From Deltaproteobacteria bacterium (lineage in GTDB: Bacteria; Desulfobacterota; Syntrophorhabdia; Syntrophorhabdales; Syntrophorhabdaceae), in the NCBI GenBank assembly GCA_022711595.1, contig JAKLET010000002.1, forward strand, positions 1 to 64,000: DNA of 64,000 nt, written 5' to 3'. Position 1 is the stretch's first letter. Each line of letters starts with the position of its first letter. Below are positions 46,621-51,665 of the stretch, piece by piece. A program made the translations under genes and the position numbers. A model generated the notes under the pieces. The model was not told where the DNA came from. It worked only from the letters and a program-made list of their open reading frames with translations, and ran no database searches.

Positions 46621-47862
46621 TCAGAGGAATCGTTTTTTAAGCTCTTTTACCAGCGCGATGTTTTCAACATGACCTGTCTGGCGGGCGGTTATCCTGCCGA
46701 TGATGGGCCTGTTCAACAGGTAGATGTCGCCGATGAGGTCGAGTACCTTGTGGCGGACGAACTCGTCATCATAGCGAAGCTTTGTGTTTATGACCTCATC
46801 TTCACTTAAGATTATGAAATTGTTGATCCTTCCCCCTGTCCCAAGCCCCATCCTGGTGAGCTGTTCGAAATCCTTGAGGAACCCGAACGTCCGGGCTGGC
46901 GCGATATCGGCGATGTAGTCACTGAGGCCGCCGCGAAAACGGTATTGCTGTGTTCCGATGGGTTTTGTCTGCTCAAGGAGATAATCGATCTCGAAGGCAT
47001 CACATGGCTCCGCCATAAGGTATTTACCGTTCTGCAGGCTGCCAAGTTCCACCTTCTCGGTGATGACAAGGGGCTCGATCCCGTCTGCCTGCTCGACGAT
47101 GCCCGCCTCGTCGATCTTTTTACAGATCTCGATGGAGGAACCGTCGAAGATCGGGACCTCTTCGCTTACCTTTACAAGGAGGTTGGTGACCCCGTACATA
47201 TGGCAGGCAGAAAGAAGGTGCTCTATGGTGCGGACCACGCTGCTCTTGCCTTTCACCGACGAAGCGTAACCAACGGAAAAGACATAGTCGATATATGCCG
47301 GGATGCGTTCGCCGTCGGGGATGGTCTCGAAGATGATGCCCGTGTTCTCCGGCATGGGCAGGAGGATCATGCCCGTCTTTACGCCTGAATGGAGCCCGAG
47401 TCCGTAAACTACGGTGCTTTTCCCAATGGTCTTCTGCTTGGTCATCGTGAGTCCGGGGGAGACTTCCAGCCTGAAATCCGACGTGCCGGCGTCATGCTTT
47501 CCTGCCGCGCCGATGCCGCGCGATACGACTTCCAGGACCTTGTCGATGGAAAGGGGTTTTTCAAGGAAATCATAGGCGCCCATCTTTACGGCCTCGACCG
47601 CTGTTGATATGGTGCCGTGGCCGGAAATGACGATCACCTTTGCGTCATCCCTTTTCCCGCGCATTTTTTTAAGGACCTGGATGCCATCGAGTTCGGGCAT
47701 CCATACGTCGAGAAGCACCACGTCAGGCTTTTCACGCTCGAAGATCGCAAGGCCTTCCTTCCCGTCTGTTGCCTTCAATACGGCGAAGCCTTCATCTTCA
47801 AGTATCCCGGAAAGGGAGTCGATAATGTCCCGTTCATCGTCTATGATAAGGACCGTGTGCAT
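46621..47862 (-). CDS. lpxC: Response-regulator receiver domain fused to LpxC deacetylase
   Basis: One uninterrupted 413-residue frame joins two domains. Residues 1-122 are a CheY-like receiver, close to the NtrC/NtrX type: acidic pair Asp8-Asp9, phosphorylation site Asp52 in VVLLDVWMPELDG, Ser80 in VISGHG, Lys102 in FLEKPL. After a short linker, residues about 142-413 are LpxC, the zinc enzyme that deacetylates UDP-3-O-acyl-GlcNAc, the first committed step of lipid A synthesis. Catalytic pieces are intact: GLGLHSG, TIEHLLSA (Glu214, His215), EVPIFDGSS, APARTFGF, DEFVRHKVLD (His371, Asp375) and ITARQTGH (His398). LpxC alone is normally about 300 residues. No DNA-binding output is present. The gene is convergent with lolA. 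Confidence 0.95.
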   Translation of the reverse strand: MHTVLIIDDERDIIDSLSGILEDEGFAVLKATDGKEGLAIFEREKPDVVLLDVWMPELDGIQVLKKMRGKRDDAKVIVISGHGTISTAVEAVKMGAYDFLEKPLSIDKVLEVVSRGIGAAGKHDAGTSDFRLEVSPGLTMTKQKTIGKSTVVYGLGLHSGVKTGMILLPMPENTGIIFETIPDGERIPAYIDYVFSVGYASSVKGKSSVVRTIEHLLSACHMYGVTNLLVKVSEEVPIFDGSSIEICKKIDEAGIVEQADGIEPLVITEKVELGSLQNGKYLMAEPCDAFEIDYLLEQTKPIGTQQYRFRGGLSDYIADIAPARTFGFLKDFEQLTRMGLGTGGRINNFIILSEDEVINTKLRYDDEFVRHKVLDLIGDIYLLNRPIIGRITARQTGHVENIALVKELKKRFL

Positions 47863-47909: not shown

Positions 47910-48452
47910 TTATTGTTTCTTTTCCGGGCAGGAAATTTTTGCAAGCTTGTCTATCATGGTGCCTTCGGGGATGTCCTCCCAGTCTTTCTGGCTTCCCGCC
48001 TTGCCGTAGTCGAGTGTCTTTTTGTCCTTCGATACCTCGAAGACCTTCATGATGGCATACCGCTTCGGCTCGGCGGCGCACTTGAAATCATAGAGAATAT
48101 ACCGGTTGGCCAGCGTGTCCATCCCCGTGGTGAACATGCCGTTCCTGCGTCGCTTGAGCACGTAGGCGTTCCTGCCTTCCCTGGAGTAGGTGAGCCTGTC
48201 CCAGGCACTGGCGATCTGGCCGGACTGGTCGGGCCTTTTTTCGACGATGTAGTGGTGTTCGCCTTCCTGATCGGCTGCCAGGCTCTGCCAGCCGTCTTTT
48301 TCCTCCATACGCGGGAGGGTCCCTTCAATGGACGCCGTAAGGGTCTTGCGCTGCTGGAGGTGTATGGCGATATAGGCGATAACGATCACGGCGATGCCTA
48401 TTATCACGCCTATTGTCAATACTGCTTTGAAGGACAGCGTTTTCTTTGCCAA
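47910..48452 (-). CDS. Membrane-anchored periplasmic protein, surface-adhesin-E-like
   Basis: A 180-residue protein. The TTG at 48452 is chosen because AAGGAAGG precedes it; the frame runs further upstream but that stretch is low quality. One membrane segment (about 8-28, VLTIGVIIGIAVIVIAYIAI) anchors the N-terminus. The rest faces the periplasm and ends with ANRYILYDFKCAAEPKRYAI and a final Cys (KISC), the two-Cys pattern of the surface-adhesin protein E/CNP1 family. Function unknown. It lies 47 bp upstream of the receiver-LpxC gene on the same strand, so co-transcription is possible. Confidence 0.65.
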   Translation of the reverse strand: MAKKTLSFKAVLTIGVIIGIAVIVIAYIAIHLQQRKTLTASIEGTLPRMEEKDGWQSLAADQEGEHHYIVEKRPDQSGQIASAWDRLTYSREGRNAYVLKRRRNGMFTTGMDTLANRYILYDFKCAAEPKRYAIMKVFEVSKDKKTLDYGKAGSQKDWEDIPEGTMIDKLAKISCPEKKQ

Positions 48453-48560
48453 GGGGCCTTCCTTTCGGAGGGCCGGAAGGGGCCCTCGTGGATTTTTTTC
48501 CAAAACGATACCATCGAACAGGCCCCTTTGCAAGCGTGTCGTTGAAAATTCTTACCTGTT

Positions 48561-48618: not shown

Positions 48619-49623
48619 TTGTTGGACGAGAAGACCGAGGAAGGATTTTTACGACTGTCCTTCGATGATATAAACGTGGCCAGGAACCTCTTCGGGCCGC
48701 GGGAAGAAAACATCAAATACCTGAAAAAGTACTTCAATATAAAGGCGAGTATACGGGGCAACCACCTTACCCTTATCGGCGGTAAAAAAGATATTGAGGA
48801 CACGGGAAAGGTCATAAATGAACTCCACGGTATCGTCAAGAAAGGTTTTCCCGTGGGTGCCTCCGATATAGACCATGCCGTCAGACTTATCGTTCACGCA
48901 CAGCAGGGCGCCGAAGACATCGAGAAGGACCAGATATACATCGCAGGCTCTAAAAAACTTATAACGCCCAAGAGCCCCAATCAGAAGCAGTACGTCAATG
49001 CCATGAAGAAATACGATGTCGTCATCGGCATCGGCCCAGCGGGTACAGGCAAGACATATCTTGCCATGGCGATGGCGCTTTCAGCCTATTACAAGAGGGA
49101 GGTGTCGCGGATCATCCTCACGCGGCCCGCTATCGAGGCAGGGGAGAAGCTGGGGTACCTGCCGGGCACGATGTATGAGAAGGTCAATCCTTACCTGAGG
49201 CCCCTTTATGACGCGCTGTACGACATGGTGGACATGGACAGGGCGACCCGGCTCATCGAAAGGGGCGTCATAGAGATTGCGCCGCTGGCATTCATGCGGG
49301 GCAGAACGCTCAACGATGCCTTCGTTATCCTCGATGAGGCCCAGAACACCGCCTCCGAGCAGATGAAAATGTTCCTTACCAGGCTCGGGTTTTCGTCCAG
49401 GACGGTCATTACCGGGGATATCACCCAGATAGATCTTGCCGATAAGAAAACGAGCGGTCTTGTCGAGGTAAGGGGTATCCTGAAAAGCGTAAAGGGCATT
49501 AAGTTTGTATACTTTACTGAAAAAGACGTTGTGCGCCACCCGCTTGTGCAGAAGATAATCAAGGCCTACGAGGCGCGCCGGTTGGAACTGGAGGAGTCAA
49601 AAAATGCAGAACGGAAAGGATAA
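48619..49623 (+). CDS. phoH: PhoH-like ATPase
   Basis: A 334-residue PhoH-family ATPase, an RNA-linked P-loop protein usually encoded beside ybeY. An N-terminal KH-like part (about 15-85) precedes the P-loop GIGPAGTGKTYLAMAMAL. The family features LTRPAIEAGEKLGYLPG, AFMRGRTLNDAFVILDEAQN and ITGDITQIDL follow. The start is a TTG at 48619 (a second TTG at 48622 is equally possible), with GAGAGGA upstream. It overlaps pgpH by 20 bp. Confidence 0.93.
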   Translation: MLDEKTEEGFLRLSFDDINVARNLFGPREENIKYLKKYFNIKASIRGNHLTLIGGKKDIEDTGKVINELHGIVKKGFPVGASDIDHAVRLIVHAQQGAEDIEKDQIYIAGSKKLITPKSPNQKQYVNAMKKYDVVIGIGPAGTGKTYLAMAMALSAYYKREVSRIILTRPAIEAGEKLGYLPGTMYEKVNPYLRPLYDALYDMVDMDRATRLIERGVIEIAPLAFMRGRTLNDAFVILDEAQNTASEQMKMFLTRLGFSSRTVITGDITQIDLADKKTSGLVEVRGILKSVKGIKFVYFTEKDVVRHPLVQKIIKAYEARRLELEESKNAERKG

Positions 49624-51313
49624 ACCTCCCTCGCAAATCCAGTACGGGAAGTTGCTCGTTCTTTTCTGCCTTGCCGTAAGTCTTTCCGCCATAGTAAGCC
49701 TCAAAAACCCGTTTTTCTCCGCTGAGTACCAGCTTGGCGATATCGCCAGGGAAAACATAAGGGCTCCCGTCCTTTTCGCCGTACCCGGCACGGAAACGAC
49801 GGTCAAGAAGGGGGAGGTCGTAGTGCGTGAAGGCGAGCGCATTACTGAAGACCACCTGTCGAAGCTTGCCGTCTACAATACCCTGGAGAGGCGGGAGACG
49901 TTTGCGATAAAGAAATTCATCGCCGTTTTCCTCCTTCTTTTCTTCCTCATCGCTATACTCTATGAATATGCCGAGAGGAACATAAAAAAGTTTTTCCTTT
50001 CCTGCAAGGACCTTGTTTTTTGCAGTGCCTTCACAGTACTGTGCATCCTTTTCGTCAAGGTCTTTCACCTGATCTTTGAATACTATGCTCCGGGCCACCT
50101 TGGCGAACTGGTCTATATCATACCTGTCTTTCTTTTTGCCATGGTGGTGCGGATCGTTCTTTTTTCAGAGATCGCCATTATCTTTTCGATATTTTACGCC
50201 GCCGCCCTGGCATTCTCTTTCGAGAACAGTCTCCACGTGTTCCTCTACAGTTTTGTCGGCTCCATCCTGGGCGCTTTTTTCGCGGGCAAGTGCGAAAACC
50301 GCAATACCATTCTGAGGGCGGGTTTATACACGGCATTCCTGATGGCCCTTTTTGTGCTTGCAGGCGATATCTTCACGGGTAATACATGGGGAAGCAATGT
50401 TCCCCTCAAGATCGGCTTCGTCCTGGTCAACGGCATTGCCGGCAGTTTTATCGCCCTCGGCCTGCTGCCGGTCATAGAGAGCGTTTTTGATTACACGACT
50501 GACATCAAGCTCCTGGAATTGGCAAACCTTGAACATCCGCTGCTCGGAGACATGATGCTCAATGCCCCCGGGACATATCATCACAGCATCGTTGTGGGCA
50601 GCCTGTCAAAGGCGGCGGCGGAAAGCATCGGTGCCCACCCGCTCCTGACAAGGGTTGCCGCTTACTACCACGATATTGGCAAGCTGAAGATGCCCCATTA
50701 CTACATCGAGAACAGGGTCGGCTCGGAAGATGCTCACAAGGGCCTGACCCCGAACATGAGCGCCCTCATTATTCTCTCCCATGTAAAGGAGGGAGTGGAG
50801 CTTGCCGGTGAATACAGGATAGGAAGCAGGCTGACGCGGATCATAAAGGAACACCACGGAACGACTATCGTGAGCTATTTTTACAGTAAGGCCAAGGACC
50901 TGGAAGACCCGTTGCTCCATGTGATCGAGGAGAAGGATTTTCGGTATCCCGGCCCGAAACCCCAGACAAAGGAAGCGGGCATCATCATGCTGGCCGACGC
51001 TGTCGAGGCATCATCCCGGGTCCTTGAGGAGCCTACGCCGAAAAGGATAGAGAACCATGTGCAGCAGATCATAGAAAAGATATTCCTCGACGGCCAGCTC
51101 GACGAGTGCGAACTGACGCTCAAAGACCTCCACGCTATCCAGAAGAGCTTCATAACGATCCTCATAGGCATTTTCCACCAGCGCATAGAATATCCCGAAA
51201 GGACACAGAATGGCGGTACTGATAAAAAACTCCCAAAGGTCGATGAAAACAGACCAAAAAGCGATAAGAAAGGTGACCGGGGAGTTACTGGCCTCTTTAA
51301 AGCTTCAGGATAA
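49604..51313 (+). CDS. pgpH: 7TM-HD phosphodiesterase (PgpH family)
   Basis: A 569-residue protein. One membrane segment (about 17-35) and a short extracytoplasmic stretch are followed by a cluster of seven segments (about 100-290) and a cytoplasmic HD domain with AAYYHDIGKLKMPHYYIENR. In Firmicutes this family degrades cyclic di-AMP; its role in Gram-negative bacteria is less clear. The extracytoplasmic 7TMR-HDED domain is much shorter than in typical PgpH, leaving about 65 residues. GGAGG precedes the ATG. The final 34 codons overlap ybeY and are not family-like. Confidence 0.9.
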   Translation: MQNGKDKPPSQIQYGKLLVLFCLAVSLSAIVSLKNPFFSAEYQLGDIARENIRAPVLFAVPGTETTVKKGEVVVREGERITEDHLSKLAVYNTLERRETFAIKKFIAVFLLLFFLIAILYEYAERNIKKFFLSCKDLVFCSAFTVLCILFVKVFHLIFEYYAPGHLGELVYIIPVFLFAMVVRIVLFSEIAIIFSIFYAAALAFSFENSLHVFLYSFVGSILGAFFAGKCENRNTILRAGLYTAFLMALFVLAGDIFTGNTWGSNVPLKIGFVLVNGIAGSFIALGLLPVIESVFDYTTDIKLLELANLEHPLLGDMMLNAPGTYHHSIVVGSLSKAAAESIGAHPLLTRVAAYYHDIGKLKMPHYYIENRVGSEDAHKGLTPNMSALIILSHVKEGVELAGEYRIGSRLTRIIKEHHGTTIVSYFYSKAKDLEDPLLHVIEEKDFRYPGPKPQTKEAGIIMLADAVEASSRVLEEPTPKRIENHVQQIIEKIFLDGQLDECELTLKDLHAIQKSFITILIGIFHQRIEYPERTQNGGTDKKLPKVDENRPKSDKKGDRGVTGLFKASG

Positions 51314-51665
51314 GGACCTGAGCATCCTTTTTGTGGATGACAGGGGGATCACCGCACTGAACAGGGAGTATTTCGGAAAAGACCGCCCCACGAATGTGAT
51401 CTCTTTTTCCTATTCCGATGGCATGCCCGGCGAGGCGATGGGGGATATCATAATCTCCGTGGAACGTACGGCCGTCGAGGCAGGCGAGGCCGGAATACCT
51501 TTTTACGAAAGGCTGTTCGCCCTCATTGTTCACGGACTTGTCCATATAATGGGTTATGATCACCTGCGGGGCGAGTCCGAGGCGAGGAAGATGCGTTACC
51601 GGGAGCGCAGGTTCATGGATCTTGTGCGTTCGCAGCCGGCATACCGGGCGCTTGTCGATATATAA
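51210..51665 (+). CDS. ybeY: Endoribonuclease YbeY
   Basis: A 151-residue zinc enzyme for rRNA maturation and ribosome quality control. The metal motif HGLVHIMGYDH (H-x3-H-x5-H) is present, and the N-terminus VLIKNSQRSMKTD is the usual one, so the ATG at 51210 is correct. This makes an unusually long overlap of 104 nt with the end of pgpH, in another frame. The order phoH-pgpH-ybeY is a familiar one. Confidence 0.94.
   Translation: MAVLIKNSQRSMKTDQKAIRKVTGELLASLKLQDKDLSILFVDDRGITALNREYFGKDRPTNVISFSYSDGMPGEAMGDIIISVERTAVEAGEAGIPFYERLFALIVHGLVHIMGYDHLRGESEARKMRYRERRFMDLVRSQPAYRALVDI

Follow-up and report, generated by a model that had tools for sequence, protein, structure and literature searches.

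LpxC catalyses the committed step of lipid A synthesis and is a target for antibiotics; enzymatic outputs have precedents among response regulators. In Rhodobacter sphaeroides and in Caulobacter, transcription of lpxC is repressed by the kinase-regulator pair NtrYX (PMC7240162, PMC12444477), and a third, periplasmic component of NtrYX systems has been described in the DUF4390 proteins (PlrP) (PMC13001219). In Desulfovibrio, lpxC is the single target of the response regulator DVU2934, and in S. fumaroxidans lpxC is located directly upstream of the orthologous DVU2934 operon (PMC3333781). Contact with MurA directly sets LpxC activity in Pseudomonas aeruginosa (PMC12444477).

The locus analyzed here lies within a 64,000-nucleotide stretch of DNA from a member of the Syntrophorhabdaceae (contig JAKLET010000002.1 of assembly GCA_022711595.1), hereafter the window, and encodes an LpxC fused to a response-regulator receiver (REC). 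The protein resembles LpxC of Aquifex aeolicus and E. coli in its complete catalytic domain, its zinc ligands, its fold and its status as the sole genomic LpxC, but differs from them in the receiver of about 120 residues placed in front, and the fused LpxC domains form a group of their own. With NtrYX of R. sphaeroides and Caulobacter it shares an NtrX-type receiver and LpxC as the end point, and related fusions share a linked NtrY-type kinase, which in the window genome is present but unlinked; its output is the LpxC enzyme itself, the sigma-54 AAA+ and DNA-binding part being missing from REC-LpxC proteins and decayed in those of REC-AAA-LpxC architecture. As with DVU2934 of Desulfovibrio vulgaris, which comes from the same broad group, a response regulator is dedicated to lpxC, although DVU2934 is a separate DNA-binding regulator that acts at the promoter (PMC3333781). 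MurA exerts the direct protein-level control of LpxC activity that is proposed here for the fusion, but it does so in trans and without being part of a two-component system (PMC12444477). The LpxC-FabZ protein (NF009667) is also an LpxC fusion, but its partner is a C-terminal hotdog dehydratase, metabolic and not signalling; the NF009667 model matches the window protein over the LpxC part only, with 192.7 bits, and its cut-off of 465 is not met.

A receiver and an LpxC domain in one reading frame

On the minus strand of the window, a single unbroken open reading frame with an ATG start runs from 47862 to 46621 and encodes 413 aa. The preliminary description, which was silent on the strand, had presented this gene as a receiver joined in one frame to an LpxC catalytic domain, and both Pfam domains indeed score far above their cut-offs, Response_reg (PF00072) with 108.4 bits over residues 4-113 (cut-off 30.2) and LpxC (PF03331) with 257.6 bits over residues 143-409 (cut-off 27). 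The residues that it had singled out in the receiver (Asp8/Asp9, Asp52, Ser80, Lys102) and in LpxC (Glu214, His215, His371, Asp375, His398) are all found where it had placed them. The features of the gene are the following:

46621..47862, minus strand: REC-LpxC fusion gene, 413 aa, with the ATG at 47862 and the stop at 46623-46621; homologous fusions are known from other genomes
47524..47853, minus strand: receiver (REC), residues 4-113, of NtrX type (PF00072, NtrX NCBIfam model, REC tree)
47836..47841, minus strand: Asp8-Asp9, metal-binding acidic pair of the receiver, conserved in 87/88 fusions
47707..47709, minus strand: Asp52, predicted phosphoacceptor, conserved in 87/88 fusions (exception L127)
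47623..47625, minus strand: Ser80, switch Ser/Thr (S in 78 and T in 10 of 88 fusions)
47557..47559, minus strand: Lys102, conserved receiver lysine (K in 88/88 fusions)
47440..47511, minus strand: linker, residues 118-141, variable in sequence, with high dN/dS and low pLDDT
46636..47436, minus strand: LpxC catalytic domain (UDP-3-O-acyl-GlcNAc deacetylase), residues 143-409 (PF03331, structural match to 4oze)
47218..47223, minus strand: Glu214-His215, catalytic Glu and first zinc ligand by alignment to solved LpxC, invariant in 25 fusions
46738..46752, minus strand: His371...Asp375, zinc ligands of the HKxxD motif by alignment to solved LpxC, invariant in 25 fusions
46669..46671, minus strand: His398, catalytic histidine by alignment to solved LpxC, invariant in 25 fusions

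The protein also exceeds the cut-off of the NCBIfam lpxC equivalog TIGR00325 (209.8 bits, cut-off 187.25), and D8, D9, D52, S80, K102, E214, H215, H371, D375 and H398 are all invariant across 25 aligned fusions. Its structure as predicted by AlphaFold2 (pTM 0.88, pLDDT 87.9) resembles Aquifex LpxC 4oze (E 9.6e-30, TM-score 0.92 over the target), with pLDDT dropping to 52-59 in linker residues 121-140. As the model came without error matrix or coordinates, the orientation of the domains was not counted as evidence for an interface. The preliminary description had proposed to look for a second, stand-alone lpxC in the same genome; a PF03331 search of the window genome (a draft of 3.55 Mb in 58 contigs, completeness 100) detected one LpxC, the fusion, and no second canonical gene. 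Judged by this search, the fusion is the only LpxC of the cell; its deacetylase activity is inferred, its status as sole copy giving indirect support only.

Upstream of the fusion by 47 nt, on the same strand, is a small gene (47910-48533, minus strand) whose product is probably membrane-anchored and weakly matches Surface-adhesin protein E, with a score below the cut-off; only five close loci (L002-L004, L007, L013) have a relative at the corresponding position. Divergent from the fusion, positions 48619-51665 of the plus strand encode phoH, a 7TMR-HD phosphohydrolase and ybeY; most of the Syntrophorhabdia loci examined keep the phoH and 7TMR-HD genes arranged in this way.

Spread of the fusion and linkage to NtrY

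How far the architecture extends had been left undecided in the preliminary description, and it proved to be widespread. A scan of genome contigs detected full-length fusions in Syntrophorhabdia with 67-87% identity to that of the window, and in Binatia and related genomes with 44-46% identity. Within the GTDB phylum of the window, fused-type LpxC, counted as LpxC matches with an E-value < 1e-75, was found in 91 of 395 genomes, these 91 belonging to 25 family-level groups. Forty-five of these 91 match the query from receiver to LpxC and one is cut by a contig end; the other 45 match mainly over LpxC, but their frames are longer. Retrieval of 23 of the longer-frame cases revealed an in-frame receiver in 21 and a receiver broken between frames in two (L104 and L127), and the remaining 22 are counted solely by their score and the length of their frame. 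Matches confined to LpxC, in frames of 440-490 aa, had been candidates for LpxC-FabZ, an assignment that was rejected, those retrieved being REC-LpxC proteins in which the linker is longer. Of 32 other fused genomes tested, 30 have no LpxC apart from the fused one. No fusion was detected in 150 genomes of Pseudomonadota at an E-value of 1e-55, a threshold that a diverged case could escape, and the phyla surveyed were limited to that of the window and this Pseudomonadota sample.

In the LpxC tree, a branch with 99% support separates all 57 fused LpxC domains from all 20 unfused ones, and identity to the LpxC domain of the window is at least 44% for fused proteins and about 35-41% for the phylum's unfused LpxC. 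The LpxC tree and the receiver tree described below are quick and unrooted, with long branches flagged.

Some individual loci are worth recording. A single genome encodes LpxC twice, in frames of 475 and 479 aa that are both long enough for a fusion (L107 and G393:C1:1532771-1533592). The receiver start is out of frame at L127:768-2111 (minus strand), by assembly error or by decay of the receiver, and L104:7818-9707 (minus strand) is a REC-AAA-LpxC gene just downstream of NtrY with its receiver split into another frame. At L204:1027-2331 (minus strand), in an unrelated genome, LpxC is followed in one chain by a FabZ-like dehydratase, which is the known bifunctional type.

At 28 distinct loci the fusion is immediately preceded by a co-directional NtrY-type kinase gene, which ends no more than about 130 nt from the first receiver codon in the alignment; at L098 the gene order is DUF4390, NtrY, REC-AAA-LpxC. 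A kinase in the same chain as the fusion, for which L087 and L092 with their stop-to-stop frames of 900-1400 aa were candidates, was rejected because the extra N-terminal stretch is an out-of-frame shadow of a separate upstream NtrY gene.

The window genome turned out to possess an orphan kinase of the kind that the preliminary description had proposed to look for. It has exactly one full-length NtrY-type kinase, encoded outside the window (C12, 224208-226424) and composed of HAMP, PAS, HisKA and HATPase domains, which scores 430 bits against the linked L098 NtrY used as query (next kinase, 117 bits). It is flanked by genes resembling pgeF and smpB, and no response regulator is adjacent to it. 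Since this kinase is not adjacent to the fusion and is only 34% identical to the linked L098 kinase, the pairing of the two in the window genome is only inferred.

An NtrY orthologue was detected in 29 of 31 genomes of the window's order, with no match in the other two, and none of 12 such loci has a response-regulator gene within 1.5 kb flanks. Elsewhere, exactly one strong NtrY is present in 13 of 15 genomes whose fusion lacks a kinase neighbour, with no match in the remaining two, both incomplete (68% and 75%). No NtrX lies within about 5 kb of such an NtrY at the nine loci examined widely (L222-L230), and a search of 18 fused genomes yielded none that exceeded the family cut-off; fused genomes do contain many other NtrC-type regulators. 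In most of the fused genomes examined, NtrX is missing beside NtrY, a pattern with exceptions: G285 carries the fusion and an intact NtrY-NtrX pair, and G208 (L096, L190, L221) has a fused LpxC together with an unfused lpxC beside NtrY, the fused gene being elsewhere. The fused copy of G208 sits on a long branch.

Unfused lpxC is followed by NtrY on the same strand at 12 of 20 loci, and at seven of nine of these examined NtrY is followed in turn by an NtrX whose GAFTGA loop is intact, no NtrX following the NtrY of L217 and L218. A DUF4390 gene is present between lpxC and NtrY at both of the two unfused loci checked. This linkage indicates that lpxC and NtrYX often lie together in genomes of the phylum. 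The DUF4390 genes at L167:3989-4615, L181:4097-4804 and L098:32-499, which stand either between lpxC and ntrY or immediately before ntrY, come from lineages other than the proteobacterial classes for which PlrP was described (PMC13001219).

Receiver type and decay of the sigma-54 activator part

Between the NtrC and NtrX types to which the receiver had been provisionally assigned, the models favour NtrX, which is its best response-regulator model with 133.4 bits over residues 1-120 versus 83.5 for NtrC. The cut-off of 600 bits for full-length NtrX is not reached, the match of 134.6 bits covering residues 1-122 only, and Pfam detects neither a sigma-54 AAA+ nor a DNA-binding domain in the window fusion. 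The fusion is thus not an NtrX; the receiver alone is of NtrX type. In the REC tree, fused receivers cluster with NtrY-linked NtrX receivers with 97% support, apart from the genome's own NtrC-type receivers.

Across 88 fusions, D8, D9 and D52 are conserved in 87, the sole exception being L127, in which the first part of REC is out of frame, and the switch position 80 is Ser or Thr in every case. Purifying selection is evident in pairwise dN/dS between close relatives, which is 0.03-0.05 for the receiver and 0.034-0.055 for LpxC, with 0.2-1.2 for the linker; the values are rough, as synonymous sites are near saturation. The domain is thus maintained by selection for its role as a receiver; such conservation shows signalling, but not that catalytic activity is the output.

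The majority architecture is REC-LpxC. In the second, of 700-770 aa, a sigma-54 AAA+ domain with its lid is placed between receiver and LpxC. The GAFTGA loop of such domains contacts sigma-54. Both this loop and the Walker B Asp-Glu are lost in 14 of 14 REC-AAA-LpxC proteins, in which the receiver phosphorylation site is retained; both motifs are kept in most NtrC-type regulators of the same genomes and are intact in the NtrY-linked NtrX of L192. Loss of the AAA output motifs with retention of the receiver site indicates decay of the transcription output but not of the signalling input. By eye, a resemblance to a Fis-type helix-turn-helix persists in L098 in the segment that links AAA+ lid and LpxC, although Pfam reports none.

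The AAA-bearing forms constitute a single group in the receiver tree and require two changes in the LpxC tree. The order of events is inferred: the decay pattern favours, without proving it, a scenario in which REC-AAA-LpxC came first and the AAA domain was lost repeatedly. The ancestor would have had the gene group lpxC-DUF4390-ntrY-ntrX, with NtrYX presumably controlling lpxC expression. NtrX would then have been joined to LpxC, its sigma-54 activator part decaying as seen in REC-AAA-LpxC, and loss of the AAA part in most lineages would have left REC-LpxC. We regard it as reasonably probable that an NtrX-type sigma-54 transcription activator was turned in this way into an in-cis controller of an essential biosynthetic enzyme.

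Proposed control of LpxC and alternatives

Our favoured interpretation, which we hold to be likely on comparative grounds, is that the fusion is a sole LpxC controlled by NtrY, with a working NtrX-type receiver, and derived from the NtrYX-lpxC gene group. A membrane-bound NtrY-type kinase (the C12 orphan in the window genome) would phosphorylate Asp52 and probably also dephosphorylate it. The phosphorylation state of Asp52 would affect the deacetylase intramolecularly and change the amount of active LpxC, so that lipid A synthesis would be set by the kinase signal without transcription. Phosphotransfer from NtrY and its effect on LpxC are inferences, and there are no biochemical data; direct kinase control of LpxC through the receiver, as the preliminary description had suggested, is supported by the comparison of sequences, and a direct change of LpxC output by NtrY-dependent phosphorylation of Asp52 is the most likely reading. 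The established links from NtrYX to lpxC, from DVU2934 to lpxC and between MurA and LpxC point in the same direction.

Phosphorylation by NtrY could instead change the lifetime or place of the enzyme, through proteolysis or membrane tethering beside the kinase, and not its catalytic rate, a possibility that we consider unlikely but worth keeping. RssB is the second-best response-regulator model for the fusion receiver, and the best-scoring solved receiver is 3eq2, which we take to be an RssB-type protein; this likeness is, however, limited to the receiver, the RssB output domain is missing from the fusion, and no degron was identified in its sequence. LpxC of E. coli is under proteolytic control (PMC12444477), and its usual adaptor LapB is apparently absent from the window genome, in which the only zinc-ribbon match looks like RadA, a divergent LapB not being excluded. 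If LapB is absent, something else must set the LpxC level, and its apparent absence fits a different control of LpxC without proving it.

It is considerably harder to sustain that the receiver is a structural relic, dimerising or stabilising and kept for its fold, in an ordinary constitutive LpxC. LpxC functions without an attached domain in most bacteria, and receivers commonly mediate dimerisation in response regulators, but a relic would not account for the conservation of the phosphorylation-site positions in 87 of 88 fusions, including proteins whose AAA domain has lost its catalytic residues, nor for the retention of an NtrY-type kinase along with the fusion. A reverse flow of information, in which substrate- or product-bound LpxC would alter the receiver, thereby the phosphatase/kinase balance of NtrY and finally other response regulators, seems very improbable: the NtrY-NtrX pair of G285 and the abundance of NtrC-type regulators in fused genomes would provide it with targets, but most of these genomes have NtrY with no other partner beside it, and NtrX above the family cut-off is missing from the 18 searched. 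Joining of adjacent genes by a sequencing or assembly error is refuted by the homologous fusions, as nothing beyond the draft state of the genome (58 contigs) could be cited for it and the same unbroken fusion occurs in independent assemblies of many species, including large contigs (1.7 Mb, G056).

For direct control of LpxC by an NtrY-type kinase, the reading that we prefer, no precedent in the form of a published LpxC-receiver fusion was found in the open-licence literature; LpxC as a response-regulator output appears to be new, and the path traced from NtrX to LpxC is unusual. The known controls of LpxC are proteolysis in E. coli, MurA contact in P. aeruginosa and transcription in some alphaproteobacteria, and a receiver on LpxC itself would, if true, represent a fourth kind. 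The poorly understood NtrYX system would then have, in Desulfobacterota and Binatia, a defined output at the envelope, and the fusions would offer a testable case of a transcription factor turned enzyme regulator whose intermediates are still alive. In a large group of uncultured and anaerobic bacteria, an NtrY-type membrane kinase thus probably controls LpxC directly, bypassing gene expression, as far as can be predicted from genomes.
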